Below, piece by piece: positions 940-19,540 of a stretch of DNA of 64,000 nucleotides. The stretch is from Sideroxydans sp. CL21 (GTDB lineage: Bacteria > Pseudomonadota > Gammaproteobacteria > Burkholderiales > Gallionellaceae). How positions within the stretch are numbered: the stretch's first letter is position 1; each line of letters begins with the position of its first letter. The notes under the pieces are model-generated. The model ran no database searches and had not been told where the DNA came from. It saw nothing but the letters and a program-made list of their open reading frames with translations. The stretch covers positions 1,810,501 to 1,874,500 of the forward strand of contig NZ_LR699166.1 of NCBI RefSeq assembly GCF_902459525.1. Reading direction: 5' to 3'. Both the position numbers and the translations under genes were made by a program.

Positions 940-1000
940 GGTCTATACCTTTTGGCATATATCCCGTAACGGTTTTTACTGATAATCTCCGGCGCGAATA
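940..1000 (+). promoter_or_regulatory. Promoter-like module, site 1 (shared box plus -10-like element)
   Basis: The block GGTCTATACCTTTTGGCATA (from 940) is followed, exactly 40 bases after its GTCTAT, by GATAATCTCCGGCGCG (from 981). The same two elements with the same spacing recur at 11831/11871, 12602/12642 and 19458/19498. The second element resembles an extended -10 (TGATAATCT), so the first would sit at a typical activator position. This copy lies about 80 bases before the outer-membrane gene at 1079. The rest of 767-1078 holds nothing else I can name. Confidence 0.5.
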
Positions 1001-1078
1001 ATTTGTGGAACGGTTCAAGCCGTTTTTGACTGCAGCTTTTCATAATCACCTTAACCTACTGAAATCGGAAACCAAATA

Positions 1079-1768
1079 ATGGCGAGACGCATCAGGACAT
1101 ATGCAATAGCATTGATTTGTTGTTTGGCAGTTTCACCCGCATTTGCTAACAACGAAACCACGAATTCATCCATTATTCTCAGCGGCGGGTACTCTAAAGC
1201 AAAAAATGCATGCGATTCACCTTGGGTTACTGTTGCTATGGGTTCGGGCAGTACTTGTAGTGAAACTCATACCGCTTTACGTCTGGCCTACAACTATCGA
1301 TTTACTCCAATATGGGGGTTTGAAGCCAGCTATGGTGACTTGGGAAATGCGACAGGAGAAGGGATATCTACCGTCTCTGGGCTCGCTGGGACACTCGCCA
1401 CATGGTCAACCAAGGCAATCGGGTGGGCATTTTCCGGAACAGCGACTGTTCCGATCACCGGCGGATTTTCTTTCTTCGGAAAAGTAGGAACCGTTCGCGC
1501 TGAATTCAGTGAAAGCTACCATGCAAATTCGAATACTACTGGCGCAGTCATGCAAGGTATCTCAGTTAACGGCGTGCCCATAAGCAGACAAATCAAAAAT
1601 TCTGTGACGTATGGAGCCGGGGTTCAATATGAATTGAGTAAGAGTTTTGCCATTCGAGCTCAATATGAAAATTTTGGTTCTTACGACATATATAGCGCTT
1701 ATGGAATTTCCAATCCCCCTCGTATAGCGCTTTCGCTGGCTTCAGTTGGGATTGTTCTCAAATTCTGA
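1079..1768 (+). CDS. OmpA-like outer-membrane beta-barrel protein
   Basis: This is a 229-residue protein with a signal peptide (about residues 1-23, cleaved after SPAFA), then alternating amphipathic strands and a terminal phenylalanine (GIVLKF), the usual signal for BAM-mediated barrel insertion. Phrases such as YNYRFTPIWGFEASYGDLG and YGAGVQYELSKSFAIRAQYENF are typical of the eight-strand OmpA/Opa-like barrel. There is no C-terminal peptidoglycan-binding OmpA domain, so it is a bare barrel. It is monocistronic and preceded by copy 1 of the shared promoter-like module. It probably has a structural or adhesive role; no substrate can be assigned. Confidence 0.75.
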   Translation: MARRIRTYAIALICCLAVSPAFANNETTNSSIILSGGYSKAKNACDSPWVTVAMGSGSTCSETHTALRLAYNYRFTPIWGFEASYGDLGNATGEGISTVSGLAGTLATWSTKAIGWAFSGTATVPITGGFSFFGKVGTVRAEFSESYHANSNTTGAVMQGISVNGVPISRQIKNSVTYGAGVQYELSKSFAIRAQYENFGSYDIYSAYGISNPPRIALSLASVGIVLKF

Positions 1769-1792
1769 CCCAGGAAAATTATCAAAAATGAC

Positions 1793-1826
1793 GGACACTT
1801 GAATCAAGTGCCCGCAATGTTTTTTC
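1793..1826 (+). terminator. Possible terminator after the barrel gene
   Basis: A hairpin (GGACACTTG / CAAGTGCCC, three-base loop, one mismatch) is followed a few bases later by TTTTTT. The gap before the T run makes it weaker than a canonical intrinsic terminator. Confidence 0.35.
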
Positions 1827-2017
1827 CGATTCAAAGCCCGGCCACTTTCTGGTTACAGTTTCGCTTCTTCAGCATGGGTGCTACTGATTTATGCCCGTTG
1901 GCTCATATAAATCGTTGAGTAGTGGCGATCTGACTTATTGTACGGTAAATTTTGAATACACAGATTACGCACGGACAAAATAAAATGGCTTACATCTCTG
2001 CAAGCCATTGTTTTGTT

Positions 2018-2093
2018 TGGCGTCCCCTACGAGATTCGAACTCGTGTTATCGCCGTGAAAGGGCGGTGTCCTAGGCCTCTAGACGAAGGGGAC
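2018..2093 (-). tRNA. tRNA-Glu(TTC)
   Basis: This is a 76-base cloverleaf on the minus strand. The acceptor stem GTCCCCT pairs with AGGGGAC, the anticodon loop CTTTCAC gives TTC, the T-arm contains GTTCGAATC and CCA is encoded. It lies next to tRNA-Ala and immediately downstream of gltX, the synthetase that charges tRNA-Glu. Confidence 0.96.
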
Positions 2094-2113
2094 TTCGTTG
2101 TTACTTTTCTTTT

Positions 2114-2189
<76 letters not shown>

Positions 2190-2246
2190 GGGGTGCCCCG
2201 AAAAGAGCGCGCATTATAGTGATGGCACCCCACCTTGTAAAGCAAG

Positions 2247-3653
2247 TCAGCCGGTTTTTTTCGAGAGGTTCTTTTCTATGCGTGCCAGAACCATCTCGCG
2301 CGTAAACAATGTCACCAAAGCATCCACAGAAGGTGTCTGGGTTTGTCCGGTGAGCATCACGCGCAGTGGCATGGCAAGCTTGGGCATCTTCAAGCCGTGT
2401 TTGACTATGATTTCCTTGATGGCGGCGCTGATTGCAGTGTTTTCCCATGCCACTGTGGCGAAAAGTTGCGACAAGTCGCGCAGTGCAGGAATGGCTTCAG
2501 CGGAAAGTTGTGCATCAAGCAGGGCTGCATCCGGGTGCAGATCGATGTAGAACACTTCCGCTGCGTCGGCCAGTTCGTTAAGCGTGGCAACACGTTCCTT
2601 ATATACGCCGACAATGGCACTCAGATCCGGGCTGGCTGACACTTTGATGCCGCGTTTTTCGAGGCGAGGGCGAACCAGTTCCACCAATTGGGCGTTATCG
2701 GTTTGTTTGAGGTAATGGTTGTTCAACCAGTTCAGTTTTTCGGTATTGAACTGCGCGGCAGAAGGCGTGATGTGGTCGAGATCGAACCACTCGCAGAATT
2801 GTGCGACCGAGAAAACCTCATTGTCGCCGTGCGACCAGCCCAGGCGCGCAAGGTAATTGATGACGGCTTCCGGCAAATAGCCGTCTTCGTCGTATTGCAT
2901 CACGCTCACCGCACCGTGGCGCTTGGAAAGCTTGGTGCCGTCGTCACCGAGGATCATGGACAGGTGGGCGTATTTCGGTATGGTGGCACCCAGCGCTTTA
3001 AGAATATTGATCTGACGCGGGGTGTTGTTGACGTGGTCGTCGCCGCGGATCACTTGCGTGATACCCATATCCCAATCGTCCACCACCACGCAGAAGTTAT
3101 AGGTTGGCGTACCGTCGGAACGGGCGATGATGAGATCGTCCAGTTCGGTGTTGCTGAATTCGATATGACCTTTGACCATATCTTTCCATGCAACGACACC
3201 GGCCATCGGGTTCTTGAAACGCACCACGGGCTTCATGTCTGCGGGGATAGACGGCAGAGACTTGCCGGGTTCGGGACGCCATGTGCCGTCGTAACGCGGC
3301 TTCTCGCCGCGAGCACGCTGCGCCTCGCGCATGGCATCCAGTTCTGCCGGGGTCGTATAGCAGTAATAGGCCTGTCCCGCCGCCAGCATCTGCTGGATGA
3401 CTTCCTTATAACGCGGCATGCGTTGCATCTGATAGAACGGGCCTTCGTCGTAGTTCAATTTAAGCCAGGCCATTCCGTCCAGAATAGCCTGCACAGCTTC
3501 GGGAGTAGAACGCTCCACATCGGTATCTTCGATACGCAGAATGAAAGTGCCGCCATGTTTGCGTGCATAGGCCCAGGAAAACAGAGCAGTTCGCGCACCA
3601 CCAATGTGTAGGTATCCGGTGGGGCTGGGTGCGAAACGGGTGCGGACGGTCAT
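2247..3653 (-). CDS. gltX: Glutamyl-tRNA synthetase
   Basis: A class I aminoacyl-tRNA synthetase that joins glutamate to tRNA-Glu. It has 468 residues, the usual length. The Rossmann-fold signature [17 protein letters not shown] (HIGH-type) is near the N-terminus and the KMSKS-type loop is KLSKRHG about residue 240, followed by the all-helical anticodon-binding domain. The ATG at 3653 is preferred to an upstream in-frame start because it begins directly at [13 protein letters not shown], as in relatives. The gene is followed on the same strand by tRNA-Ala and tRNA-Glu. Confidence 0.97.
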
Positions 3654-3720
3654 GGGGCATTCCTGTGGCATTAAACGAAGGCGCGCATTTTACGATAGAT
3701 GGGTAAAGCGGATAAAGAAA

Positions 3721-3750
3721 TTGACCGTATATATAGGGCTATGATTAAAT
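3721..3750 (+). promoter_or_regulatory. Probable sigma-70 promoter of tRNA-Val
   Basis: TTGACC at 3721 and TTAAAT at 3745 are 18 bases apart and end 14 bases before the tRNA. A GC-rich GCGCGCCC discriminator follows, typical of stable-RNA promoters. Confidence 0.5.
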
Positions 3751-3764
3751 GCGCGCCCTCTATT

Positions 3765-3839
3765 GGGCGGTTAGCTCAGCGGTAGAGCACTGCCTTCACA
3801 CGGCAGGGGTCACTGGTTCGAACCCAGTACCGCCCACCA
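3765..3839 (+). tRNA. tRNA-Val(CAC)
   Basis: A 75-base cloverleaf. The acceptor stem GGGCGGT pairs with ACCGCCC, the anticodon arm CTGCC-TTCACAC-GGCAG reads CAC, the T-arm has GGTTCGAACCC and CCA is encoded. The accessory-looking stretch to its right makes it a possible integration site, but no duplicated tRNA end was seen. Confidence 0.96.
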
Positions 3840-3865
3840 CGCAAAGCACTAATAAACAATCGCTT

Positions 3866-3893
3866 AAGCCACTCCGTCGAGTGGCTTTTGTTT
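3866..3893 (+). terminator. Intrinsic terminator of tRNA-Val
   Basis: A perfect nine-pair stem AAGCCACTC/GAGTGGCTT with loop CGTC is followed by a T-rich run (TTTTGTTTT). Confidence 0.85.
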
Positions 3894-3896
3894 TCG

Positions 3897-4420
3897 TGTG
3901 AACAATATGTGAAAACTTCAGTTTTCATTTCGACCTATCGTGACATGCCTCCGTGCCCCTGGGTTTTGTCTGAAGAGGTCCTGCGCCACTTCCATCACAC
4001 AAGTTGAATTGGTTCCGAGCTAGAGCTTGGAATTTCTTCTGCGACAACTTGCTTCTGCAAGTGACTCACTGAGTGACTCGCTGAGTGACGTCACTCTCTC
4101 AACCTATTTTCGTCACTCTCTAGCAGTCTCGGTGCAAATTTTTTCTTGACCTGGCGGATAACAAATTTGGGTGGTGATTTCCTCGTGCCAAGCAACGATT
4201 GCAATAGCGGGCATGGCTTCAAAGGGTTTGCACTACTTTATCGAAACGGTAACTCATTTGTTGGATTGGAATTGATAAAGTTACTCAGAGTGACGAGAGA
4301 GTGACGCTATACGAGGCAAAATAATTTCGGCGTAACGTCCAGGGATTAGACATGCCTAACGTCTGAATTCTCTAGCGGCTTTTCACGCAGGCAAGTGGAA
4401 TGATGGGGTGGGCACCACGT
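3897..4420. other. Gene-free stretch with short repeats
   Basis: There is no convincing reading frame here. Apart from the GTGACTC repeats at 4061-4096 and two further GAGTGACG copies near 4287-4305, I see nothing recognisable. Confidence 0.5.
4061..4096. repeat. 12-bp tandem repeat ending in a 14-bp palindrome
   Basis: The unit GTGACTC(A/G)CTGA occurs twice in tandem (4061-4072, 4073-4084), and a third partial unit merges into the perfect palindrome GAGTGACGTCACTC (4083-4096). More GAGTGAC half-sites occur around 4287-4305, before the HNH nuclease gene. The layout suits a protein-binding site cluster; the protein is unknown. Confidence 0.6.
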
Positions 4421-5068
4421 TCAAATGCGGTTGCCCTTTGAAAGATTGCAGCGCTCGCATAGCAATTGAAGGTTGCGAATCGTATTGCTGCCGCCACGAG
4501 AAAATGGAACGATGTGGTCGAAACAAAGTTTCTCTTTTGTACCGCACTCAACGCAGCGCCCACCGTCGCGCTGCCAGACTTCACGCTGAACGGCGCGAGG
4601 TATGGCCTCACGGCGGGCGGGCTTCTCCTTCACCGTGGGCATGCGGGAGACATCAACAGGCACTGGAGCTTGTGGCTCGGTGGGCTGTGACTTGACTTCG
4701 GGTAGCGGCATGGTATCGCGGAATGCCTTAATGAAGGAGATTGTGTCCTCCAGCTCGGTTTCCGTCTTTACCGCCAATTTGAGCGCGGGAAAACCGCGCC
4801 CTAAGCCGGGAGAAGGATAGGTATTGCTGTGACGCCCGGCCTCGCCGGGATATTCGAGAGCGATTTCAGGCACGGGCTGACCGTCCGGAGGATATGGCAC
4901 CCAGATGAAGGCACCTTGTTCTCGGTTGGGTTGGTCAATCTGGAGCACAACTCCAAGGTCGGGCCTTACGTTCCAGGCGATGACCTTTAGCGTTTCACGA
5001 GACGGTGAGCCGAATTCATTGGTAAGGACACTAGCGGCGCGAGACATCAGCGGATTGCCAAATTCCAT
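4421..5068 (-). CDS. HNH endonuclease domain protein
   Basis: A protein of about 215 residues with an HNH nuclease domain at the C-terminus. The motif has paired cysteines CVEC...CERC that would hold zinc, the catalytic DHIVPFSRGG and the closing N-x-L-L-C element. The first about 130 residues are unassigned and proline-rich towards the end. I prefer the ATG at 5068, which has GGAGT about ten bases upstream; a GTG at 5110 would add 14 residues but has no ribosome site. No methylase, integrase or intron structure is adjacent, so its role (restriction, mobile-element remnant or repair) is open. Confidence 0.75.
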   Translation of the reverse strand: MEFGNPLMSRAASVLTNEFGSPSRETLKVIAWNVRPDLGVVLQIDQPNREQGAFIWVPYPPDGQPVPEIALEYPGEAGRHSNTYPSPGLGRGFPALKLAVKTETELEDTISFIKAFRDTMPLPEVKSQPTEPQAPVPVDVSRMPTVKEKPARREAIPRAVQREVWQRDGGRCVECGTKEKLCFDHIVPFSRGGSNTIRNLQLLCERCNLSKGNRI

Positions 5069-5218
5069 TTGCGTTTTACTCCAGCGGGTGATTTTAGGGA
5101 GGGTATGCACTCTAACAGTTGTTACCCGGATGCGCGCGTCCGCATGATACTCGCCGTCTATCTACTCAAGAGCGTCTTGGATGTCCCTGATGCCAGCGAC
5201 AAGTTCAGTCTCTGATTC

Positions 5219-6064
5219 CTAGGTCCAGTCGCCGCCACCGACATCTGAACCACTATCAGCCACGTTAGAACTGTCATTCCAAGTCGAGTTGTCGGCCAAT
5301 CCAAAATCTGAGCCCCCCATGTCATTATTGGATGAGTTGCCCCATGTGTCAGCAACCGGAGAAGCATTGCTTGAATCGTTGCGACCACCGTCCATAAAGT
5401 GATGAGCCAATGCTTCACCAGCGACCATGCCGACCCCAACAGCAGCGCCCGTAGCGAGACCGCCCATAATTCCGCCACCAATTCCACTGCCAGAGGAACC
5501 AATCGGCCCCATCCCACCACCATAGGGCTGCATGGGCATGGGAGAAGGCGCACCATTAGGCATTCCTGGTTGATAGTTGCTTGGAAAAGTGGAAGAGTTA
5601 CGAGAATTCATTGCACGCATTATCAGCACAATGACTGCGATGGAACCAAGTCCAAGGAGCAGCATTCCCCATGGGAAGCTATTTCCTGACGGGGCTTGAT
5701 AATTGCCGGTGGAAGATTGGTTGACACTATGGCTTGCGAAAATCTGATTCCTCAAATTTTGAACAGCGACCGGCTTTGCAAATGACAAATCAGGTTGCAA
5801 CTTTTGAGCAATATTCAGTTCGTTTTCGGCGTTCGCCAATTGGCCCTGCTTGGCAAATAATTCTGCCTCAACAAAATGTGCTTTTGCACTGTTTGGATGA
5901 TCCTTAAGAACTTTCTCCATCATACTTTGCGCATCACCCAATCTGCCAGAATTGGCAGCTTGATAGACTTGATCAATGGTTGGAGAATTATCTGCAAGTG
6001 CGGGGCCAGTCGAGATCCACATAGCAAAGAAAATGGCGGAACAGTAACTTACGATTTTTAGCAT
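5219..6064 (-). CDS. TPR-containing membrane protein with Gly/Ser/Asn-rich tail
   Basis: A 281-residue protein with a signal peptide (residues 1-24, ending GPALA), two TPR-like helix pairs (about 29-95, including AKAHFVEAELFAKQGQLANAENELNIAQKL), one transmembrane helix (about 132-150) and a long low-complexity tail. The tail has a glycine-rich hydrophobic patch (GIMGGLATGAAVGVGMVAGEA) and ends GGGDWT. The TPR part would be periplasmic and could bind partner proteins. A good SD (GGAG) precedes the ATG. It appears monocistronic, with no function assignable. Confidence 0.65.
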   Translation of the reverse strand: MLKIVSYCSAIFFAMWISTGPALADNSPTIDQVYQAANSGRLGDAQSMMEKVLKDHPNSAKAHFVEAELFAKQGQLANAENELNIAQKLQPDLSFAKPVAVQNLRNQIFASHSVNQSSTGNYQAPSGNSFPWGMLLLGLGSIAVIVLIMRAMNSRNSSTFPSNYQPGMPNGAPSPMPMQPYGGGMGPIGSSGSGIGGGIMGGLATGAAVGVGMVAGEALAHHFMDGGRNDSSNASPVADTWGNSSNNDMGGSDFGLADNSTWNDSSNVADSGSDVGGGDWT

Positions 6065-6301
6065 TCAAATCTCCATTGAATTCAGACTCTAATATGTCCA
6101 ACCTACTCATATACATGAACACAGTTAAACAAGTATTACTTGTGCAACTTGTATTTGGAGTTTCCTGACCAGGAAAAATCTCACCGGCGAATAGACAGCA
6201 TCATGGCGGGTAAGTTCGATAGTTGTACTTAAGATTGTCAACAGAATGATCGTTCTCTAATATGCTCAAAACATTCATTCTGTTCGTTGATCATCAAGCT
6301 G

Positions 6302-6520
6302 CAATTCCCAATACAGATCCCGGCCATAGGCATAGCTACAATCCACCTGCCATTATTCAGCCATAAAGTCGCAGATGGATTCCCATCCCCTGCAGACGAC
6401 TTTATCCAAGGCTGACTTAGCTTGGACGAACACCTAATTCAGCACAAAGACTTGACCTTCTTCGTTCGTGCCAAAGGCAACAGCATGGTCGGGGCAGGGA
6501 TAGCTTTCAATAAGTGTTAA
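6302..6520 (+). pseudogene. umuD-like (S24 peptidase) remnant
   Basis: Reading the frame of base 6302 gives IHLPLFSHKVADGFPSPADDF, one TGA stop, then [24 protein letters not shown] and a stop soon after. This is the N-terminal half of UmuD/LexA-type self-cleaving proteins. The GFPSPADD segment and the SM of the catalytic serine box are retained. The C-terminal half with the catalytic lysine is missing and there is an internal stop, so it is not functional. No umuC is beside it. It is likely the trace of a lost plasmid, phage or SOS operon. Confidence 0.7.
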
Positions 6521-6614
6521 AGCCTGTCTCTTCCAAATTCACGGCTCAACGCGTATTTGGTATGGATGGGACATGGCTGGCGCAGCTTAAACGATGAGTG
6601 ACACTGGTTCAGGT

Positions 6615-7487
6615 TCAGGAATAGTCGATATCCTGTTCGCTGCCTGCATATTGGTCTTGCAACTCGGTAAGCACGGTTTTGATTCTGGTTTTGGAAAATA
6701 TCTTCTTGACGATAGTGCCCCTGAGTTCTTCCATCCTTTCAAGCAGGATGGGCTGAAACTCAGGCGGTATTTTTTTCAGGAAATCATTCCAGTTCATCTC
6801 GAAATCCGGCCGCATTTCTCGGGTGCGCTCGATCAGGTTCTCGATCCCCCTTTGTGCCGTTCGCGCGACAATCCTTCCATCACCCGATATTGCAAAAATA
6901 ACGGCTATTGAAATCACGGCATTGGCATCAAGCTCGGGATATTTTACGGGGCCATCGGAATTATTCTTGCGCAACCATTTTGCACAAGCGATGATCTTCT
7001 GGTTGCGCTTCCGATCGAGTAGTTCATTTTGAAAGACCGCGTCCCCTGTCCATGTCGAGACAGGATCGGCACTGCAAATTTCCAGGAAGATCGCTTTGAG
7101 ATTGCGCTGTTGAATGAAAGCGTCGTTATCAAAATCGGAAATGTAGGCCACATAGGGCAGGGAGGACAATTCCTTAATATGCCGGAATCCCATCTGGAAC
7201 ACATATTCAGCGCCGTGTTGCAGCAGAAACGAAAGCCGGGCTTCATTGCTATCGGCAATGCCGGCTTGGCTGATGCCCAGCGAGATGCATCCGACCGTCA
7301 GGTGGAACGCGTCGAGCATGCCATCCGCGGTCCTGTCATTCGTGAATTTTTTCGCGACCAGCACGGTGATTCCGCAGAGTTCGTGGAAAAGCGTGTCGGC
7401 GGCATCCCGATTGTCCGTGCGCAGTGCAAGCGCCTCCAGTGCCTGTACTAATTGGGGTGGGCGGGCGGTGAAACTGGTGATATTCAT
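6615..7487 (-). CDS. Hypothetical protein, last gene of the J-domain operon
   Basis: A 290-residue protein I do not recognise. It is predicted soluble and mainly helical, has no signal peptide or membrane segment, and has a moderately acidic C-terminus ending YAGSEQDIDYS. It starts directly after the stop of the 270-residue gene (TAAATG), so the two are almost certainly co-translated. With the J-domain protein at the head of the operon, it could be a chaperone client or a partner in one complex; that is inference only. Confidence 0.65.
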   Translation of the reverse strand: MNITSFTARPPQLVQALEALALRTDNRDAADTLFHELCGITVLVAKKFTNDRTADGMLDAFHLTVGCISLGISQAGIADSNEARLSFLLQHGAEYVFQMGFRHIKELSSLPYVAYISDFDNDAFIQQRNLKAIFLEICSADPVSTWTGDAVFQNELLDRKRNQKIIACAKWLRKNNSDGPVKYPELDANAVISIAVIFAISGDGRIVARTAQRGIENLIERTREMRPDFEMNWNDFLKKIPPEFQPILLERMEELRGTIVKKIFSKTRIKTVLTELQDQYAGSEQDIDYS

Positions 7488-8300
7488 TTAGGAGAAAATA
7501 TCCTCACCCAGGCTCGGCCGTCCACCAGCCTTTGGCGTGCTGGCCGCCTTGCTGGGCACTTGCCTGCGCAGGCGCAGCAACAGTTCCCTGGTCGTCCGGC
7601 CCATGGCATATTCATGTTCGCGATCGTCGTCTTCCGCCTCGTCGTTGTCGTCGCCGTCCTCTTCGTCAGACCCCGCGTGCAATTCGTTCTCGCCGGGGAT
7701 CCAGTCGGGAAATATCTCGAACAGCACCCGGTCCCAGGCTTCTTCATTGGTCCTGGCAATCTCCAACGCGAGCGGGATCACGTCGTGGTCCGAAGTCGTC
7801 TGGCCGCTTCTATGGGCGCCGAGATTATGGATGTCATTCGCGATCTCGATGATCTCATCGGCCGCCGTCGAGAAAAGCACGGCAAACGCAGTTGTCCCCC
7901 AGTCGGTCGCGAGCGCTTCATTGAGCAACTCGGCACGGCGCTCTTCATCATCGCTGGCATAAATCACGCCATGTATGTGCGCGAACAGCGATTCGGCCAA
8001 CACTTCCGGCTCGTCCTCGATCCAGTCTTCGTCCCAAGTGGCCGCGAAATAAGCCAGACTTTCGGCCCAGGCTTTGGGCGGAATAAGCAATGTGGCCAGC
8101 GACATCTTGCCGCCATCGAAGGCAGACAAATGCAGCGACGCCACATGCGGCTCCAGGGTGCTCAGCACTTCGACAACAGCGAGATCGCCGAACTTTTCGG
8201 CTGTTTCACTGATGGCCTCTTCCGCATGTTTGGTCGAACCGGCCAGAACCAGCTCGGTGACTTGTTGCCGGATTGCGGGAAGATTGGTTTTGTCAGACAT
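7488..8300 (-). CDS. Hypothetical acidic protein, J-domain operon
   Basis: A 270-residue unrecognised protein. The first about 200 residues look helical and globular (aromatic-rich around ESLAYFAATWDEDWIEDEPEVL). A strongly acidic stretch (SDEEDGDDNDEAEDDDREHEY) precedes a basic, proline-containing tail. It overlaps the upstream 173-residue gene by eight bases, which implies translational coupling. No catalytic motif is visible. Confidence 0.65.
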   Translation of the reverse strand: MSDKTNLPAIRQQVTELVLAGSTKHAEEAISETAEKFGDLAVVEVLSTLEPHVASLHLSAFDGGKMSLATLLIPPKAWAESLAYFAATWDEDWIEDEPEVLAESLFAHIHGVIYASDDEERRAELLNEALATDWGTTAFAVLFSTAADEIIEIANDIHNLGAHRSGQTTSDHDVIPLALEIARTNEEAWDRVLFEIFPDWIPGENELHAGSDEEDGDDNDEAEDDDREHEYAMGRTTRELLLRLRRQVPSKAASTPKAGGRPSLGEDIFS

Positions 8301-8814: not shown

Positions 8815-8826
8815 AATATTTTGTCT

Positions 8827-11796: not shown

Positions 11797-11829
11797 TATC
11801 TGCGGCGGAAGATCAATCACGAAAGGGAA

Positions 11830-11890
11830 GGTCTATAACTTTCGGCATATGGTCTGGAAGGGGCTTTGCTGATAATCTCCGGCGCGGTAG
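11830..11890 (+). promoter_or_regulatory. Promoter-like module, site 2
   Basis: GGTCTATAACTTTCGGCATAT (from 11830) and GATAATCTCCGGCGCG (from 11871) have the same 40-base spacing as site 1. This copy lies about 75 bases before the gene at 11965. Confidence 0.5.
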
Positions 11891-11964
11891 AGGTAAAGCA
11901 ATACGAGTTGAGAGAGTAGGCGGAAGCGTATTTTGAGCCTGTTCCTCTTTTTCTGGGAGATCTA

Positions 11965-12453
11965 ATGGAATTCGAAGAAGATCGCACTGGTACATGGCAC
12001 GCCTATGGCAAAAGGATGTCAGAAAATTCGCGATCCCAAGCTAACCTCAATTCATTCCGCGAACTGAAAAAGCTTGCTTTCCGCAATCCATTTCCGGTAA
12101 CCGAAAATTCCCAAAATACGGACTACCTGACAAAACGTTTTCCCAAAGTGGCGGCGAGCATCAACACCGATAACTGGGCGCTGCACCTTGAAATAGGCGC
12201 CATGGCGCTTGCTACGAGAGAGGCAATGTCGAAGCAGGATTGGTCTACGTTGTCCGCGCATTTTGCTTTCATCGACAGCGTGTTGGAAGCCGCCGACACT
12301 CAACTGCACGAGGCGATCGGTGTGTCTTATCTGGTCAATCTTTTTTATGGCGAGACCACATTCGATTATGCCAAGGCACGTACCCTGATGCCCAGGCGTC
12401 TGGCGACCGCACTTGAAATCATGGAGCGCCACTACGAAGAACTGAGAAAATAA
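11965..12453 (+). CDS. Hypothetical protein
   Basis: A 162-residue soluble, mainly helical protein. Its last part (HEAIGVSYLVNLFYGETTFDYAKARTLMPRRLATALEIMERHY) resembles a small helical-bundle family of unknown function. The start ATG has GGGAG seven bases upstream. It is preceded by promoter-like site 2 and followed, after repeat copy A, by a diguanylate cyclase gene. No enzyme motif is visible. Confidence 0.6.
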   Translation: MEFEEDRTGTWHAYGKRMSENSRSQANLNSFRELKKLAFRNPFPVTENSQNTDYLTKRFPKVAASINTDNWALHLEIGAMALATREAMSKQDWSTLSAHFAFIDSVLEAADTQLHEAIGVSYLVNLFYGETTFDYAKARTLMPRRLATALEIMERHYEELRK

Positions 12454-12503
12454 AGTTTCGCCCTGCGATTTACTTTAAAAAATATCACCTTGCGAAAATT
12501 TAG

Positions 12504-12665
12504 CCCCTTGAAGACGCCCGTCTTTACCGAGCTTCAAGCCGGTTTGTATACCTCACCAGTCAAATAAAATCGGGGCCGGGCGGCTGTGACCGAAGCAAAA
12601 GGTCTATATCTTTTGGCATATATGCTAGGAGGGACTTTACTGCTAGGCTTCGACGCGTTGGAATG
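12504..12665 (+). repeat. Interspersed promoter-like repeat, copy A (includes site 3)
   Basis: This copy begins with CCCCTTGAAGACGCCCGTCT, in which GAAGACG/CGTCTTT can pair. It continues through GTGACCGAAGCAAAA into GGTCTATATCTTTTGGCATA at 12601 and the degenerate -10-like GCTAGGCTTCGACGCG at 12642. It shares its whole length with copies B (13730-13945) and C (19295-19540). It lies 65 bases upstream of the PAS-GGDEF gene. Confidence 0.65.
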
Positions 12666-12730
12666 TAGGGCTTGAAAAAGCATTTCGCCCCTCTTTCATT
12701 ACGCTTTAATTCAGGTGAGGAATTCAATAA

Positions 12731-13681
12731 TTGATTAGCCAACAAACTGACCTGGAATTTGTCCGCCGTATCCAGAATGCGATCGACATGTTGCCCAGCC
12801 CGATATTCATCAAGGACGGAGGCGGTCGCTACATTGCCTGCAATCGCGCATTTGAAAGCTATATTGGCGTCCCTCGTGCGAAGCTCTGCGGCTCCACTGT
12901 ATATGACATCGCCCCGGCGGAACTCGCCGCCATCTACGAGAAGGCCGATCTCGAATTGATGGACAAGGGCGGGACGCAAAGCTACGAGGCCAACGTACGC
13001 TATGCCGACGGCACCTACCACGATGTCGTATTCTTCAAGTCGGTTTTTTACAATGCAGAAGGAAAGACCGACGGCATTTCCGGGGTGATACTTGATATTA
13101 CCGAGCGCAAGCGCATGGAAAGTGAGCTCGCGCAGGCGGCCAGGTTAGACTTCCTGACCGGCGCTTTGAATCTGCGAACTTTCTACGATCTCGCCAATCA
13201 GCAATTCACCTCGTTCAAACGCACCGGCGAAGAATTTTCCCTGCTGATGATCGACCTTGATTACTTCAAGGAAATCAACGACACCCTCGGCCATGAGGCG
13301 GGAGACGATGCGCTGCGAAAATTTGTCCAGACAGCCAAGGCCAATCTTCGCGAGCAGGATATCTTTGCCAGGACAGGAGGAGATGAATTCCGGCTGCTAT
13401 TGCCCGGCACGCCTGAGTCCGGGGCAATGTTGCTGGCCGAAAGAATTCGCGAGGAAGTGAATCAGGTAAGGATCGGCACGCCGAATGGCAGTATCGCCCT
13501 ATCCATGAGCACCGGCTTGTGCAGCAGCCTTCCGGATGACCATAGCATCGACTGCATAGTCCGTCGGGCCGATGTTGCGCTGTATCGGGCCAAAGCGGCT
13601 GGACGCAACACTGTCAAGGCTCATGGCCATATTGATTGCAAATATCATCCTGACGTTAAAACTGACTCTGTTAACGTTTGA
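12731..13681 (+). CDS. PAS-GGDEF diguanylate cyclase
   Basis: A 316-residue cytoplasmic protein. Residues about 10-130 form a PAS sensor (FIKDGGGRYIACNRAFESYIG), joined through the usual DITERKRMESEL linker to a GGDEF domain (about 150-300) with the intact catalytic loop RTGGDEFRLLLP, which should make cyclic di-GMP from GTP. The inhibitory RxxD site five residues before GGDEF is not obvious. The start is TTG with AGGTGAGG upstream. Repeat copy A lies directly before it. A c-di-GMP-gated Pel locus lies in the same window, though 12 kb away. Confidence 0.88.
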   Translation: MISQQTDLEFVRRIQNAIDMLPSPIFIKDGGGRYIACNRAFESYIGVPRAKLCGSTVYDIAPAELAAIYEKADLELMDKGGTQSYEANVRYADGTYHDVVFFKSVFYNAEGKTDGISGVILDITERKRMESELAQAARLDFLTGALNLRTFYDLANQQFTSFKRTGEEFSLLMIDLDYFKEINDTLGHEAGDDALRKFVQTAKANLREQDIFARTGGDEFRLLLPGTPESGAMLLAERIREEVNQVRIGTPNGSIALSMSTGLCSSLPDDHSIDCIVRRADVALYRAKAAGRNTVKAHGHIDCKYHPDVKTDSVNV

Positions 13682-13729
13682 CTTCAAGTCAAAATGCAAA
13701 TCACTGCCGACAACTAATTTGCATTGATT

Positions 13730-13945
13730 AAAGAAAAATCAAAAAATCTCTGTAGCAAACAATCCGTTTATAGAATTGTCCCCTTGAAGACGCCCGTCTT
13801 TACTGGCCTGTAGGCCAACGTGAATATCGAAATAAATTCCCGAACAGGAGTGGCGCGACGGTGACTGAAGCTGAATCATTAAACCCGGGTCTTGCTTAAA
13901 TGCAAATCTTCGGCGCAGCAGATGGGGGGCGTTTAGCCTGACCTC
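13730..13945 (+). repeat. Interspersed promoter-like repeat, copy B (degenerate box)
   Basis: From about 13730 this copy aligns with copy C (AGCAAACAA...GAAT...CCCCTTGAAGACGCCCGTCT) and with copy A. The GTGACTGAAGC element and the final AAATCTTCGGCGCAG are kept. The central GGTCTATATC box has been replaced (CATTAAACCCGGGTCTTGC), so this copy may no longer respond to the same regulator. Confidence 0.6.
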
Positions 13946-14303
13946 TTTGGTTCTATAGCCCGTTTATGGCGACCGCATGATCCTCAAGATTAATTTTATC
14001 TTATTGATTATTAATTTGTATTAATAGAATTTTGCCGCCGACGCAAGATGTTTGCAATCGATACTATGGCGGTATTCCCAGTTCAAACCTGCGTCTGGAA
14101 AGGCTATTCCCGGCGCCAAATCAGACAAATCAGAAATTTCCTAGGCCATGATCAGATTCGACTGAAATACATACCGCATGTTTGCGAGCAATATGCACAC
14201 ATCGCATCACCAACACGATTCACGACGCGAATAGAAATAGCACGGTAACTGATTGATAGACGCGAATGCAATCATTAAATCATTAACTGAAAGGAAATTT
14301 GAA
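13946..14303. other. Gene-free leader before the small-peptide cluster
   Basis: An AT-rich stretch (14000-14030: TTTTATCTTATTGATTATTA) is followed by sequence in which I see no gene. It could hold the promoter of the peptide cluster; no convincing -35/-10 pair was found. Confidence 0.4.
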
Positions 14304-14534
14304 ATGGATACGAATTTGGACACCAGCGCATTGAGATTGGTACATGAAGAAAAACTCAAGGATCTTCTGAAACAACAAGGGAACCTCAAAGAACTTGAGG
14401 CGGAATTGAACAGAATCAATGCGAAGATCAACAAGAAGGAAGAATTGACAAACGATGACACGAAGTTCATCGGGAATCTGGGCTGGTTGGCGGCGCTGTC
14501 TGTCAGCATCGCGACTATTGCCGCCAGCTTGTAA
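14304..14534 (+). CDS. Small protein, coiled coil plus C-terminal membrane helix
   Basis: 76 residues. A charged amphipathic helix (about 10-50: LRLVHEEKLKDLLKQQGN, then LKELEAELNRINAKINKK) is followed by a C-terminal hydrophobic segment NLGWLAALSVSIATIAASL. The ATG at 14304 has AAAGGAAA upstream. The hydrophobic end closely matches that of the next small gene (GWLAAAAVSIAALASFA), so the two are related. It could be a tail-anchored membrane peptide. Function unknown; holin-like, bacteriocin-like or regulatory roles are all possible. Confidence 0.6.
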   Translation: MDTNLDTSALRLVHEEKLKDLLKQQGNLKELEAELNRINAKINKKEELTNDDTKFIGNLGWLAALSVSIATIAASL

Positions 14535-14575
14535 TCGTACGCAATTCATCTCATCGAAAACTTTAGGAGAACATC

Positions 14576-14689
14576 ATGAACGACAAGATCATCAACGGCG
14601 AAGACAAGGCAGATATCCAGTTCCAATCGGTTTTGGGTTGGCTTGCTGCAGCCGCGGTGTCCATCGCTGCTTTGGCCAGCTTTGCCTAA
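14576..14689 (+). CDS. 37-residue membrane peptide
   Basis: The frame begins ATGAACGACAAG after a good SD (AGGAGA, five bases before). The product has a short charged head (MNDKIINGEDKADIQFQS) and a hydrophobic tail VLGWLAAAAVSIAALASFA. The tail repeats the GWLAAxxVSIAxxAS pattern of the gene 41 bases upstream. Too short for most gene finders; the ribosome site and paralogy support it. Confidence 0.6.
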   Translation: MNDKIINGEDKADIQFQSVLGWLAAAAVSIAALASFA

Positions 14690-14763
14690 CTCAACAGTGC
14701 TGGAATGCACGACAGGAGTCGCCAAATATTGAATCAGGATCCCATTAGAATTGGAGATAACAA

Positions 14764-14868
14764 ATGAAACTCATATACAAAGAAGCAGCCAAGTACGTTC
14801 GTTGGATCGTGGCCGCTATTGCGACATTGATAGTGGCATTCCCGGCACTTTTGGCAAGTGTTGACTAA
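14764..14868 (+). CDS. 34-residue membrane peptide
   Basis: The frame begins ATGAAACTCATATAC with GGAG eight bases upstream. The product has a basic head (MKLIYKEAAKYVR) and one hydrophobic helix (WIVAAIATLIVAFPALLASVD). The W-x-x-A-x-I-A pattern loosely resembles the two preceding peptides. The three genes lie in tandem on one strand with gaps of 41 and 74 bases and probably share a transcript. Confidence 0.5.
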   Translation: MKLIYKEAAKYVRWIVAAIATLIVAFPALLASVD

Positions 14869-14966
14869 GCTGCAACAATAAAGAAACGAATGTCCAGAGG
14901 CTCTGCCGTATTGGCTGGGCCGAAATAATTTGAAACCAGAAACGCTAACACGCGACGAGGAAATTT

Positions 14967-15293
14967 ATGTCTAAGAATATGGTTGTACTAACCAGTTTTC
15001 TGCTGGCGGCTATTGCCGCCCCCGCTTTTGCACATGATGCTGAATATGCTAAAGAATGCTCTAAAGAAGGTGCGAAGATTTCCAATAAACATCAAAGAGA
15101 TATTTTCTTGAAGTCATGCTTGAAGAGAATCGACATGACAGCTTTTCAATTTAGTGAAAAAGCGGAGCAATGCGATCAGAATGCAAAAAACATGAAGTTG
15201 GATGGAATGAAGAAAGATGAGTATTTGAAGCACTGCTATTTGGAAGATGACACTCATCCCAATCCAGACCAAACACCGCATCCGAAAATGTAA
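14967..15293 (+). CDS. PsiF-repeat secreted protein
   Basis: 108 residues with a signal peptide (cleaved after APAFA, about residue 22). Two related cysteine-containing segments follow: CSKEGAKISNKHQRDIFLKSCL and CDQNAKNMKLDGMKKDEYLKHC. These match the PsiF repeat (C-x-x-x-A..K..x-R-x-x-F-x-x-x-C-L), known from the E. coli phosphate-starvation protein PsiF, whose function is not established. It should be periplasmic, with a disulfide possible within each repeat. It is the last plus-strand gene after the small-peptide run. Confidence 0.7.
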   Translation: MSKNMVVLTSFLLAAIAAPAFAHDAEYAKECSKEGAKISNKHQRDIFLKSCLKRIDMTAFQFSEKAEQCDQNAKNMKLDGMKKDEYLKHCYLEDDTHPNPDQTPHPKM

Positions 15294-15342
15294 TTTGTTA
15301 TTTGTCTCGTTAGTTATTGATTCTGCACTATGAAGTAATACC

Positions 15343-15401
15343 GTTCGTGTTGGGCCTGTGGAAACCCATTCATCTCTCCACAAGCTCAAGGCGAACGGGC
15401 T
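15343..15401. repeat. REP-like inverted repeat
   Basis: CCGTTCGTGTTGGGCCTGTGG and CCACAAGCTCAAGGCGAACGG are imperfect inverted arms of the family also seen at 18526-18618 and 23987-24172. It lies between the convergent PsiF-like and pepN genes and could act as a bidirectional terminator. Confidence 0.6.
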
Positions 15402-15440
15402 TCAAACTTCAATCGAACAAGATTGTTGCTAACAATCGAT

Positions 15441-18086
15441 TCAAGATATCCCCAGCGACCTCTCCACAATCTCAAACACATCGCGCGACAGTCCCTTATG
15501 GTTGCGTAGCATTTCCAGTGCGGCGCGGGCGTGTGTCTGGCGAGCGGAATCGAACCTGCGCCAGCGGTCGAAACAGCGTGCCAGACGCGCCGCGACTTGG
15601 GGGTTGATGCCGTCGAGCTTGCGTGTTTGTTCGGCCAGGAAGCGGTAACCGCTGCCGTCGGCGGCGTGGAAGCGCACATGGTTGCTGCCAAAGGCGCGCA
15701 GCAGGGCGTAGACCTTGTTCGGGTTGCGCAGATCGAAGGCGGGATGTGCGACCAGCCGTTCGACTTCCACCAGCGTGCCGGGGCGGCGGCTGGTGGACTG
15801 CACCTGCAGCCATTTGTCGATCACCAGCGCCTCGTCTTTCCAGCGCGCATAGAACGCAGCCATCGCCTGCACGCGTTCTTCGCCTTCGCTCTGTGCCAGC
15901 ACACTCAACGCGGCGAACTGGTCGGTCATGTTGTCAGCCGTATCGAACTGCTTCTTCGCCAGTGCGCGCGTCTCTGCGCTGTCCGTTTCGCACAAATAGC
16001 CGAGACATACATTGCGCAAGGCGCGGCGGGCGGCATCCTGCGAATCGGGCCGATAGATGCCAGTTGGCGCAAGCGACTCATAGCAGGCCCTGAATTCTGC
16101 ACCGAGTTGTTCTGCGAGGTGGCGGCGCAGGCCGTTGCGGGCGGCGTGCAGGGCGTCGGGATCGACTACGTCCAATTGCTCCGCCAAGGTTGCCTCGCCG
16201 GGTAGTGTCAACGCTTCAGCGGCGAAGGCTGGGTCGGTGGCGGATTCGGCCAGTACTCGCGCCGCCGCTTTGGCGAAGTCTGCCGACCAGCTTGGCGTGC
16301 GGCCCGCGCTGATGGCGGCGGTGGCTCCAATGATCAGCTGGCTGGCGAGTCGTTGGCCGGCTTCGCAGCGATTGAATGGATCGCGGTCATGCGCCAGCAA
16401 GTGGGCGAGTTCTGCTGCCGAATAATCGAACCCGAGTACGACCGGTGCCGAGAAATCGCGCAGCAGCGAGGGCGCGGGTGCAACGGAAACTTTTTCAAAG
16501 ACGAATTCCTGCGATGCGGTTTGCAGCGACAGCACGCGCTCGGTGGGCATGTTGCTGTCGACGGCCATATGCAAGGGCAGGTCTTCTCCGTTTGGGCCCA
16601 CCAGCCCCACGGTGACGGGGATGTGGAACGGCTGTTTCTCTGGCTGGCCGGGCGTGGCGGCGCAGGACTGGCTCAGGCGCAACACGTAGCGTTGCTTTGC
16701 CGCATCGTAACTGCCGGTGGCGCGCACGTGCGGCAAACCTGCCTGGTCGTACCAGCGCATGAACTGCTTCAGGTCGACGCCGGACGCATCGGCCATGGCG
16801 GCGACAAAGTCGTCGCAAGTCACGGCCTGGCCATCGTGACGCTTGAAGTAAAGATCCATGCCGCGACGGAAGGCGGGCTTGCCAATCAGGGTCTGGATCA
16901 TGCGCACCACCTCGGCACCTTTTTGATAGACCGTGGCGGTATAGAAGTTGTTGATCTCGATATACGACGCAGGCCGCACCGGATGCACCATGGGGCCGTT
17001 ATCTTCGGGGAATTGCGAGGCTCGCAGGCCGCGCACTTCGCGGATGCGCGCCACCGAGCGGTTATGCACATCGGCGCCGAATTGCTGGTCGCGGAAGACG
17101 GTCAGTCCTTCCTTGAGCGAGAGCTGGAACCAGTCGCGGCAGGTCACGCGGTTGCCGGTCCAGTTGTGGAAATACTCATGCGCCACCACGCGGTCGATGT
17201 TTTCGTAATCGACATCGGTGGCAACGTCCGGCCGGGCCAGCACGTACTTGGTGTTGAAGATGTTCAGCCCCTTGTTCTCCATCGCCCCCATGTTGAAGTC
17301 GCCCACCGCCACGATCATGTAAATGTCGAGATCGCATTCCAGACCGAAGGTCTGCTCGTCCCATTGCATGGCCTTCTTGAGTGCGGACATGGCGTGTTCG
17401 CATTGGTCGAGCTTGCCGTGCTCGACGTAGATCGCCAGCTTCACGTCGCGGCCCGACAGGGTGCGATAGCTGTCGCTCAGCACATCGAGCTTGGCGGCCA
17501 CCACCGCGAACAGGTAGCAAGGCTTGGGGAAGGGGTCTTGCCACCTGGCCCAGTGACGGCCGCCAGCTTCGTCGCCGCTGGCCACCGGATTGCCGTTGGC
17601 CAGCAACTGCGGCAACGCCGCCTTGTCGGCATGCAGCGTAACGGTGTAGCGCGACATGACATCCGGCCTGTCCTGGAACCAGGTAATGCGGCGAAAGCCC
17701 TGCGCTTCGCACTGGGTGAAATAGCCGTTGGCCGAGCGGTAGAGACCGGACAGGCGCGTGTTGCCATCGGGGTGGATGCGCGTCCGCGTTTCCAGGCGGA
17801 AGGCATCGGGAAGGGCAGCCAGCGTCAACCGGTCCGGGCTCAAACGATAACGATCGGCGGCCAGCTCCACGCCGTCGAGGCTGATGCCAAGCAATTCCAG
17901 TTCCTCGCCGTCCAGCACCAACGGCGCATCTGGCGTGTGTGCCGCCGGATTGCGGCGCACCGCCAACTGCGCAGTCACAATGGCTTCGCCGCTGCGGAAA
18001 TCGATGTCGACATCGACGGTGTCGATCAGGAAGGGGGGCGGGGTGTAGTCGGCCAGGAGTGTGGTATGGGGAGTATGTTGGGTCAT
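15441..18086 (-). CDS. pepN: Aminopeptidase N (M1 metallopeptidase)
   Basis: 881 residues, the normal length. It removes N-terminal amino acids from peptides in the cytoplasm. The substrate-binding GAMENKG motif and the zinc site HEYFHNWTGNR (HExxH, with the third ligand Glu in SLKEGLTVFRDQQF about 18 residues later) are intact. The C-terminal helical domain of E. coli-type PepN follows. It is monocistronic and starts at ATG 18086. Confidence 0.96.
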   Translation of the reverse strand: MTQHTPHTTLLADYTPPPFLIDTVDVDIDFRSGEAIVTAQLAVRRNPAAHTPDAPLVLDGEELELLGISLDGVELAADRYRLSPDRLTLAALPDAFRLETRTRIHPDGNTRLSGLYRSANGYFTQCEAQGFRRITWFQDRPDVMSRYTVTLHADKAALPQLLANGNPVASGDEAGGRHWARWQDPFPKPCYLFAVVAAKLDVLSDSYRTLSGRDVKLAIYVEHGKLDQCEHAMSALKKAMQWDEQTFGLECDLDIYMIVAVGDFNMGAMENKGLNIFNTKYVLARPDVATDVDYENIDRVVAHEYFHNWTGNRVTCRDWFQLSLKEGLTVFRDQQFGADVHNRSVARIREVRGLRASQFPEDNGPMVHPVRPASYIEINNFYTATVYQKGAEVVRMIQTLIGKPAFRRGMDLYFKRHDGQAVTCDDFVAAMADASGVDLKQFMRWYDQAGLPHVRATGSYDAAKQRYVLRLSQSCAATPGQPEKQPFHIPVTVGLVGPNGEDLPLHMAVDSNMPTERVLSLQTASQEFVFEKVSVAPAPSLLRDFSAPVVLGFDYSAAELAHLLAHDRDPFNRCEAGQRLASQLIIGATAAISAGRTPSWSADFAKAAARVLAESATDPAFAAEALTLPGEATLAEQLDVVDPDALHAARNGLRRHLAEQLGAEFRACYESLAPTGIYRPDSQDAARRALRNVCLGYLCETDSAETRALAKKQFDTADNMTDQFAALSVLAQSEGEERVQAMAAFYARWKDEALVIDKWLQVQSTSRRPGTLVEVERLVAHPAFDLRNPNKVYALLRAFGSNHVRFHAADGSGYRFLAEQTRKLDGINPQVAARLARCFDRWRRFDSARQTHARAALEMLRNHKGLSRDVFEIVERSLGIS

Positions 18087-18258
18087 GATGGGTTTACTTT
18101 ACGGGAATGGGCGTAGTGTGACAGCAAAGCGCGGTGCAAGCCATCCTGGGCGAGCTGCAGCAGGGAATATTGCACTCCGTCACGCGGCATCAATTCAGGG
18201 ATTGTCATGAGACCATTAAAAGACTATATTCGGTTCGAGTAATTCAAGGGATGAAATC

Positions 18259-18561
18259 ATGCGCTCAACCAACATCAAACCCATCAGCTATCTCAAGGCC
18301 AATGCAGCCGAGGTGCTAAAAGAACTGACCGAAAAACGCGAGCCCTATCTGATCACCCAAAATGGCGAAGCCAGGGCCGTCATGCAAGACATTGCTTCCT
18401 ACGAAAACACCCAGGAAACGCTGGCATTGCTCAAGATACTGGCACTGGGCAAACAGGAGATCGAAGCAGGCAAAGTCACCCCGGTGGCCGAAGTGGTGCG
18501 TCGTCTTAAGGCCAAAAATAATCCTTCCGTTCGTGGTGCACCCGCAAGGGGTAGGCCGTGA
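18259..18561 (+). CDS. YefM/Phd-type antitoxin
   Basis: 100 residues. The N-terminal half (STNIKPISYLKANAAEVLKEL..REPYLITQNGEARAVM) is the Phd/YefM DNA-binding and dimerisation fold; the C-terminal half should wrap the toxin. The last about 12 residues (NPSVRGAPARGRP) are encoded by the start of an inserted REP-like repeat, so the original stop was probably lost and the tail is recent. It precedes the ParE-type toxin gene by 67 bases. Autorepression of the pair is expected from the family. Confidence 0.85.
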   Translation: MRSTNIKPISYLKANAAEVLKELTEKREPYLITQNGEARAVMQDIASYENTQETLALLKILALGKQEIEAGKVTPVAEVVRRLKAKNNPSVRGAPARGRP

Positions 18562-18618
18562 CTGTAAGGGGCATGTGCCCCAACAGCACACGCACAGCCT
18601 GTCGAACCATGAATGGAA
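18526..18618. repeat. REP-like repeat between antitoxin and toxin
   Basis: CCGTTCGTGGTG (18526) and CCTGTCGAACCATGAATGG (18600) match the contiguous copy at 23990-24021, with about 60 extra bases between the halves here. It occupies the whole gap between the two genes and supplies the antitoxin's C-terminal codons. Confidence 0.6.
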
Positions 18619-18628
18619 GTCGTTCAAT

Positions 18629-18955
18629 ATGAATTTCAAGGTTCTGCTCACCCAAGGTGCAGAGCGTGATCTGGAGAGCATCTACGACTACATCGCCGAG
18701 CACGACAGCCAGAAAAACGCAGACTTCGTGCTGGATAAGCTCCTGGAAGTTGTCGAAACACTGTCCACTTTTCCCGAGCGCGGCACCCACCCAAAAGAAC
18801 TGCTCGCGCTGGGTATCCGCGAATACCGCCAGGTACATTTCAAACCCTACCGCCTCATCTACCGGGTGACCGGCAAACAGGTAATCATCTACATCATTGC
18901 CGACGGACGGCGCGACATGCAGGCACTGTTGTCGCGCAGGATGCTGGGCGTATAG
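18629..18955 (+). CDS. ParE/RelE-superfamily toxin
   Basis: 108 residues. The fold signature AERDLESIYDYIAEHDS, then FPERGTHPKEL, FKPYRLIYRVTGKQVIIYIIADGRRDMQALL is typical of the ParE/RelE plasmid-stabilisation family. Family members either poison gyrase (ParE) or cut mRNA on the ribosome (RelE); sequence reading alone cannot tell which, though the YDYIAEHDS helix hairpin favours ParE. It is paired with the antitoxin immediately upstream. The two genes normally touch or overlap; here a repeat separates them. Confidence 0.85.
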   Translation: MNFKVLLTQGAERDLESIYDYIAEHDSQKNADFVLDKLLEVVETLSTFPERGTHPKELLALGIREYRQVHFKPYRLIYRVTGKQVIIYIIADGRRDMQALLSRRMLGV

Positions 18956-19294
18956 CCAGCCTGGAGTCGAGAGGTCTATATAATATTCTTGCTGGTGGTA
19001 AAGAGTTGCCGTGGCTGATAGATTGCGCGGGATTAAACGGCGTCTGGAAGGGGGCGATGGGGCAGGTGGAAAAATATTGCGAACCCGACCCCATTAATTC
19101 ACTCACCACCCGTCGAAACGCCCCCATCTCATACCTACACCTGTGATGGCCTAACTTACTGCTCGCAAATGCACTCCTGCGAAGAAGCAACATTTTTCCT
19201 GCGCAACTGTCCAGGCGTGAAGATGGATGTAAACCACGATGGTGTGCCGTGCGAAACGCAATGGTGCAAATAGCGCTCTAAAATTAATTTCATT

Positions 19295-19540
19295 TGTTAA
19301 GAAAACGTCAAACTTTATTCTGCAGGTCATTGCAACAAACAACCCATTTCGAGAATCATATCCCCTGAAGACGCCTGTCTTTACTGGGCTGCAGACGAAT
19401 TCAAATATCAAGATAAATTGTTGGGGCGGAATAGTTCAGCTGTGACTGAAGCAAGTGATCTATATCTTTTGGCATATATGCTTGAGGGTTCTTTGCTGCT
19501 AATCTTCGGCGCAGTAAATGGAAAGCAATGCGGGGGGTAG
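19295..19540 (+). repeat. Interspersed promoter-like repeat, copy C (includes site 4)
   Basis: This is the fullest copy. It has CCCCTGAAGACGCCTGTCTT at 19362, CTGTGACTGAAGCAAGTGATC, the box CTATATCTTTTGGCATATATG at 19460 and GCTAATCTTCGGCGCAG at 19498. The perfect palindrome GCATATATGC is present in this copy and in copy A. It lies about 80 bases upstream of the 107-residue gene of the DUF5343/HEPN cluster. The rest of 18956-19622 holds a short partial copy (GGTCTATATAATATT, 18972) and nothing else recognised. Confidence 0.65.

Follow-up and report, generated by a model that had tools for sequence, protein, structure and literature searches.

A regulator-type box with a -10 element at fixed spacing: probable promoters of a Gallionellaceae regulon, repeated ahead of unrelated genes near dif

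What does it mean that one short box, followed at a fixed distance by a -10-like hexamer, recurs in a single orientation ahead of unrelated genes? The question is raised by the window, by which we mean the whole stretch of 64,000 nt analysed here, from Sideroxydans sp. CL21 (contig NZ_LR699166.1, positions 1,810,501 to 1,874,500; the genome comprises 3.77 Mb in one contig). The box, CTATAnCTTTTGGCATAT, has four matches in the window against a mean of 0.07 expected, a number reached in none of 100 shuffles, and at all four of them a TAnnnT hexamer begins 40 bases past the box start. An earlier note on this DNA had described this arrangement, with all four boxes on the plus strand, and the description stands. 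From comparisons of sequence, we consider it probable that the sites are activator-dependent promoters of one Gallionellaceae-wide regulon, copied ahead of unrelated genes near dif. The module is probably an activator docking site with a transcription-start signal at a fixed distance from it. Two of the window sites (1 and 2) and four copies of a longer module (A to D, two of them decayed) are located in Table 1.

Spacing and promoter anatomy

The fixed spacing recurs well beyond the window. A box-alone pattern, CTAKAYCKTTTGGCATAT, was scanned over a public genome collection and gave 118 stretches; because the -10 played no part in this search, it serves as an independent control of the spacing. 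TAnnnT stands at offset 22 after the box in 53 of the 64 distinct exact sites from Gallionellaceae-type records (so labelled from record titles or from correspondence with contigs of same-genus genomes), as opposed to 2 of 58 from other taxa. The earlier reading hinged on further genomic copies with the 40-base spacing, and such copies exist.

At 79 sites the -10 stands at exactly this offset, 69 of them being of the CTATA type and 10 of the CTAGA type. Fourteen loci judged non-Gallionellaceae are left out of the logo and profile sets (L096, L122, L165, L068, L095, L100, L123, L124, L133, L146, L161, L180, L092 and L130), including L165, although its record is titled Gallionellales. The logo of the 69 CTATA-type sites contains TTTGCTGCTAGnCTTCG and no TTGACA or -35 consensus. 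The order of elements is GGT-CTATAYCTTTTGGCATAT, 15 weakly conserved bases, and then TTTGCTGCTAGnCTTCGg. An outer half-site, TAGGC, is weakly retained in register with these (each base of TAGG in 56-66% of the sites, the C in 38%).

A putative dimeric activator would bind the box as an imperfect palindrome, with TATAKGCC as the best half-site, 4 bp between the halves and, often, a third half-site 12 bp upstream of the palindrome. We know of no regulator for this half-site. At a small-RNA locus (described below) the operator in many genomes is TATAGGCC-GATA-TATAGGCC-GTTT-GGCATATA, and in 10 of 28 such loci the central GTTT is replaced by its reverse complement, AAAC, as a symmetric-dimer site would allow.

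If transcription starts 5-7 nt after the -10, as predicted, the palindrome centre lies at -41.5 to -43.5. A palindromic site at a fixed position of about -42 from this predicted start, together with a -10, is the arrangement of a class II activator promoter, and with the box centre about 42 bp ahead of the start the activator would contact RNA polymerase. The promoter would be of the extended -10 type, TGnTAnnnT, in class II geometry and without a -35, much like the class II extended -10 promoters of Crp/Fnr or NarL/FixJ regulators. Start codons follow the sites closely (median 78 nt, and at most 200 nt in 72 of 80), a measure in which short gaps are favoured because the script takes as the downstream open reading frame (ORF) the longest one starting within 450 nt.

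The box might alternatively be a -35-like element in the promoter of an alternative sigma factor, for which the long, strongly conserved -10 block would be suitable. Sigma -35/-10 gaps are about 16-19 bp, whereas 22 bp separate the end of the box from the -10 hexamer; the box is also palindromic, and we regard this explanation as highly improbable. A sigma-54 promoter was rejected on inspection, as the GG/GC spacing does not fit by eye.

Distribution, a conserved small RNA and candidate regulators

The records of the window's genus are partly named Sideroxydans, Sideroxyarcus or Gallionellaceae. When up to 3 mismatches are allowed, the genome of the window contains the pattern 25 times and the reversed pattern 7 times. 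A stricter pattern finds matches in 23 of 61 genomes, of which 22, the window's own included, belong to the same genus and one to a different genus of the family; there was a single control match. A profile made from sequence only was built from 65 sites, after 14 of the 79 had been removed as at least 88% identical to another. At E<=0.1 it finds matches in 33 of the 34 genus genomes, including 13 in the window's own genome and 25 in G011; at E<=1e-4, in a large search run with stricter filters, it finds them in 71 of 158 family genomes and in 10 of 15 genera, with 28 of the 34 genus genomes among them.

One box has no evident same-strand gene next to it, but is followed by an unannotated, predicted RNA of approximately 95 nt, whose end is formed by a GC hairpin and a run of T, an intrinsic terminator. 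In the window's own genome this RNA lies at about 165328-165422 (L014, L362 and L395), outside the window, between genes that we take, by eye, to be prmC and argH. A DNA search with the promoter and the RNA matched 33 of the 34 genus genomes: 28 in both parts, 2 in the RNA only, and 3 in the box part only, which may be other sites. Twenty-two consecutive bases are invariant in 26 distinct copies (the CUCUCCUCC stretch), and their reverse complement, GAATAGGAGGAGAGTATGAAAG, contains a Shine-Dalgarno sequence plus an ATG start codon. The fold beats all of 200 shuffles (z -4.08), and no Rfam family matches the RNA in L014 or L038 at E up to 0.5. Of 399 genomes of the order, a covariance model finds the RNA in 10; all are members of this family, which has 13 genomes among those listed. 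The six RNA-bearing genomes of other genera have a similar box ahead of the RNA, which by eye is clear in four of them and weak in the other two. The small RNA is the most conserved member of the proposed regulon, and is predicted to pair with ribosome-binding sites. A search of 402 records, including the window, for such targets gave, besides the RNA loci, only partial matches: four, each with 3 mismatches in 17, of which two precede a gene that is presumably hemN.

GacA-activated regulatory small RNAs likewise have a regulator-type site ahead of a short RNA that acts on ribosome-binding sites. The present RNA shares with them the conserved site and, possibly, the mode of action, but differs in the site itself, in the lack of an Rfam match, in the invariant CUCUCCUCC and in its predicted direct pairing.

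A symmetric site at -42 fits regulators of the LuxR/NarL/FixJ and the Crp/Fnr superfamilies alike, and the LuxR/FixJ-type activator of the earlier note is still only a guess. In our judgement, the former have slightly less than an even chance, the latter are appreciably less probable, and other types taken together are a little less probable still. Among GerE-domain proteins of ten genomes (the comparison covers 3 of the 7 matches of G025, 7 of the 10 of G030 and 8 of the 9 of G028), three response-regulator groups occur in 10, 9 and 8 genomes; the NCBIfam models closest to them are NarL, ErdR and UvrY/GacA, none of which reaches its cut-off. For the Crp/Fnr type, a comparison of 28 of the 46 HTH_Crp_2 matches listed shows two groups, present in 9 and 8 of nine genomes. 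None of the NarL/FixJ groups in the ten genomes or the Crp/Fnr groups in the nine tracks the presence of CTATA-type sites. Presence or absence cannot pick the regulator, because 28 of the 34 genomes keep the box and the small RNA together. EpsA was rejected as the regulator, being present in just 3 of the 34 genomes.

Copies ahead of unrelated genes, and their decay

The genes that follow the sites are diverse. Eighty-one sites stand before 51 BLAST families of script-picked ORFs, a count that omits L096 and L122, includes some ORFs that are not real genes and treats the small-RNA locus as one family. Of 30 downstream proteins scanned with Pfam, 12 have no family; the others include GGDEF, receiver-domain, methyl-accepting chemotaxis protein, PAS, Cache/HAMP, cytochrome c, HEPN, GmrSD_N, lipoprotein and DUF families, and no single pathway is apparent among the 30. 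The earlier note's regulon module is well supported by this variety, by the family-wide spread and by a box/-10 spacing that is fixed in relatives and not in chance matches. In three genomes (loci L045, L097 and L105) the box stands ahead of a 183-aa receiver-domain protein, assigned by Pfam for L097 and by BLAST for the others, which is a possible feedback member of the regulon.

Table 1. Predicted promoter elements, decayed modules and dif in the window.
Feature	Position	Strand	Remarks
Site 1, activator box (predicted)	943..960	+	0 mismatches to CTATANCTTTTGGCATAT
Site 1, extended -10 TGATAATCT	980..988	+	Next gene 1079-1768, outer-membrane (OM) beta-barrel PF13505
Site 2, activator box (predicted)	11833..11850	+	1 mismatch
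Site 2, extended -10	11870..11878	+	Next gene 11965-12453 (DUF7674, 162 aa)
Copy A, upstream hairpin element GAAGACGCCCGTCTTTAC	12510..12527	+	0 mismatches; 94 bp ahead of box
Copy A, activator box (predicted)	12604..12621	+	0 mismatches
Copy A, -10 TAGGCT	12644..12649	+	Next gene 12731-13681 (PAS-GGDEF)
Copy B, decayed module	13786..13925	+	Hairpin (at 13786) and spacer retained, box gone
Copy D, decayed module	about 18975-19100	+	Partial box, -10 displaced by 4, leader retained
Copy C, upstream hairpin element	19367..19384	+	93 bp ahead of box
Copy C, activator box (predicted)	19460..19477	+	0 mismatches
Copy C, -10 TAATCT	19500..19505	+	Next ORF 19623-19946, then DUF5343/HEPN genes
Copy C, shared leader element	19558..19581	+	3 mismatches to AATTCGAACCTGACCCCTTTAATT, 0.00 expected
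dif site	43677..43700	-	1 mismatch to dif core; the four window sites point to it

Within the window, pairwise alignments of copies A, B and C extend over 253-284 letters with 71-76% identity, and score above all of 200 shuffles. The spacer between hairpin and box aligns by itself, its score being reached by 1 (A-B), 0 (A-C) and 0 (B-C) of 500 shuffles. The boxless copy B retains GTGACTGAAGC and a TGCAAATCTTCGGCGC remnant, and a similar boxless copy occurs in a second genome (L206, G029). When copy D was compared with seven modules, its score was reached by none of 300 shuffles for three of them (L111, copy C and L058), by 4-5 of 300 for two, and by 46 and 149 of 300 for the remaining two. An ORF with a ParE-type toxin domain (18362-18955) adjoins copy D. 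The first ORF behind copy C (107 aa) has no family and is followed by the DUF5343 gene and a Swt1-like HEPN gene; two candidate ORFs behind copy B, of 97 and 108 aa, match no family in Pfam.

These results partly confirm what the earlier note had observed and partly support its interpretation. Its longer repeat A/B/C is real, although it did not recognise that copy B has no box and it missed the decayed copy D. For the downstream genes Pfam gives an OM beta-barrel, DUF7674 (the 162-aa protein), PAS-GGDEF and, behind copy C, DUF5343 and HEPN. The motif GATAATCTCCGGCGCG is exact at sites 943 and 11833, whereas copy C has 3 mismatches to it and copy A falls outside a 3-mismatch scan. As for a mobile promoter, the duplicated spacer, the decayed copies and the gain before unrelated genes speak for it, but no inverted repeat shared by copies A-C and no sign of transposition was seen.

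Two further parts of the module occur beyond the window. The hairpin element lies 71-96 bp ahead of the box in 13 of 91 sites, compared with 20 of 6480 control windows. Its distances from the box (71, 81-83, 89 and 93-96 bp, with a fourteenth match at 129 bp) are suggestive of helical phasing, although the copies are related. The leader, with the core ATTnCGAACCyGmCCCC, occurs as a loose pattern in 16 of 91 sites and in 127 of 7080 control windows; the strict pattern has 16 matches among the loci examined, 7 of them with a box upstream, and the reversed pattern has none.

Alternatively, the long repeat could simply be a mobile repeat between genes, resembling a repetitive extragenic palindromic (REP) element or a miniature inverted-repeat transposable element (MITE), with an incidental promoter look. 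Sister genomes do contain many copies of a related hairpin element (allowing 3 mismatches, 39 in G017, 27 in G021 and 11 in G025), often as a two-hairpin unit, and copies A-C have a common spacer without a known function. On the other hand, 78 of the 91 sites have the box and -10 without the hairpin element (up to 4 mismatches, 71-96 bp), the spacing is fixed with a start codon close behind, and the most conserved site precedes a conserved RNA. We find this explanation improbable. The hairpin part alone resembles REP/REPIN elements, as a short intergenic hairpin repeat of high copy in sister genomes, and the box, -10 and leader do not; the hairpin pair is seen for the related element in the sister genomes, while a single element stands beside the box. 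The REP-like two-hairpin repeat, GCCCGTCAATAGGC...GCCCGTATTTACTGGCTTGCGGGC (L330, L334, L337 and others), has 11-39 matches per genome in G017, G021 and G025, where it is seemingly often at gene ends. A MITE was rejected as no terminal inverted pair is common to copies A, B and C, and integron cassettes were rejected by judgement, because opposite-strand ORFs stand between the copies (no attC search was made). By eye, the module contains no XerD-like arm of a Xer-type site.

Did the promoter itself move, or did the sites spread solely by duplication of gene and promoter together, followed by divergence or replacement? In 11 multi-site regions, which are not independent events because they were picked for clusters and are partly homologous, all 41 sites have the orientation of the others in their region, which is what tandem duplication would produce. 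This explanation is rather unlikely, given the 51 ORF families at 81 sites and the presence or absence of the box before the orthologous gene F5. The F5 proteins are 84-88% identical; the box is upstream in G004 and absent in G000, G029 and G013. The comparison of relatives proposed in the earlier note thereby yields one clear case. Strong homology between the G004 and G000 upstream regions starts just past the leader, at what is also a rearrangement breakpoint, so that insertion is one possibility only.

Several points weigh against promoters that were copied throughout a regulon. F5 is the sole close orthologue set with and without the box; in the other four, carrier and non-carrier are 22-67% identical. 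A search of copies A-C for an inverted repeat shared by all three found none. Most of the sites lack the hairpin element, most lack the leader, and leader matches can be weak, with as many as 4 mismatches. Eleven of the 64 Gallionellaceae-type box matches are without a -10 at the offset, and the strong profile scores of the training sites follow by construction, because these were chosen by box and -10. Few pairs of the small RNA co-vary (5 of 21 with a double change), and the widespread regulator groups are found as well where CTATA-type sites are scarce or absent.

Mobile promoters are reportedly similar promoters ahead of non-homologous genes, with gain and decay. The module agrees in that similar promoter sequences stand before non-homologous genes, are gained and decay, and are present or absent before orthologues (F5). 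It differs in its regulator-type box at fixed spacing, its family-wide site set and its clusters near dif. Work on mobile promoters and promoter propagation (Matus-Garcia et al. 2012; van Passel et al. 2014) is cited in PMC8049555 and PMC9208149. Among the titles and abstract openings listed in literature searches on mobile promoters, regulons of Sideroxydans, small RNA of Gallionella and acquisition linked to dif, none describes the promoter module or the RNA.

Position near dif

The dif site of the window was found with a dif core sequence. It agrees with the dif of Methylobacillus flagellatus as given in PMC2731167. The GC skew changes sign near 46 kb in the window. In stretches of six genomes with a dif site (G000, G028, G004, G007, G014 and G008) the nearest cluster copy is 12-73 kb off, and every cluster copy points to dif. 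A search for dif gave nothing in the 87 kb that follow the last copy in G011, or in the short stretches examined of G003, G029, G030 and G013. The window's own genome has five box/-10 sites far from dif, at about 165, 182, 410, 2970 and 3387 kb; four of them point towards dif and one away.

This polarity raises a further alternative, namely that the box is a motif of replication-terminus architecture (like KOPS, matS or Ter) and not a promoter element. The proximity and facing of the cluster copies in six genomes, as well as the four far sites that face dif, would be expected of such a motif. Far sites remote from the terminus, one of them facing away, would not, nor would a fixed -10 spacing with start codons behind. 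Moreover, cluster polarity may be one inherited fact, and leading-strand gene bias would give a similar excess elsewhere; we consider a terminus motif very unlikely.

Returning to activator-dependent promoters, the window's genus has a longer version, with a TTTGCTGCTAGnCTTCGG block and sometimes a REP-like hairpin upstream and a common leader. This version has been copied ahead of unrelated genes, in a zone of gene turnover close to dif, so that newcomers would join the regulon, and some copies have decayed afterwards. Such clusters occur in several species, and the window contains one of them. The sequences themselves show the spacing, the distribution, the duplication, the decay and the place near dif; binding by the activator, the start of transcription, the function of the RNA and the route of copying are inferred. 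More tentatively, and with less than even probability in our estimation, a regulon around a small RNA that pairs with ribosome-binding sites recruits new genes by copying its promoter near dif, its growth being coupled to terminus-proximal acquisition.

The wiring of foreign or newborn genes into regulation has so far been argued largely from models. Here there is an apparent series across many species and in one chromosomal zone, from an old conserved site through copies ahead of unrelated genes to copies in decay, and the module would show how new genes join an existing control circuit. For the iron-oxidising Gallionellaceae, it offers a testable global regulon and a small-RNA family absent from Rfam.

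Apart from these elements, the window contains an inverted repeat at 22718-22852, with 32-nt arms that are 97% complementary and 71 nt between them, within a Tex-like ORF (21444-23978).

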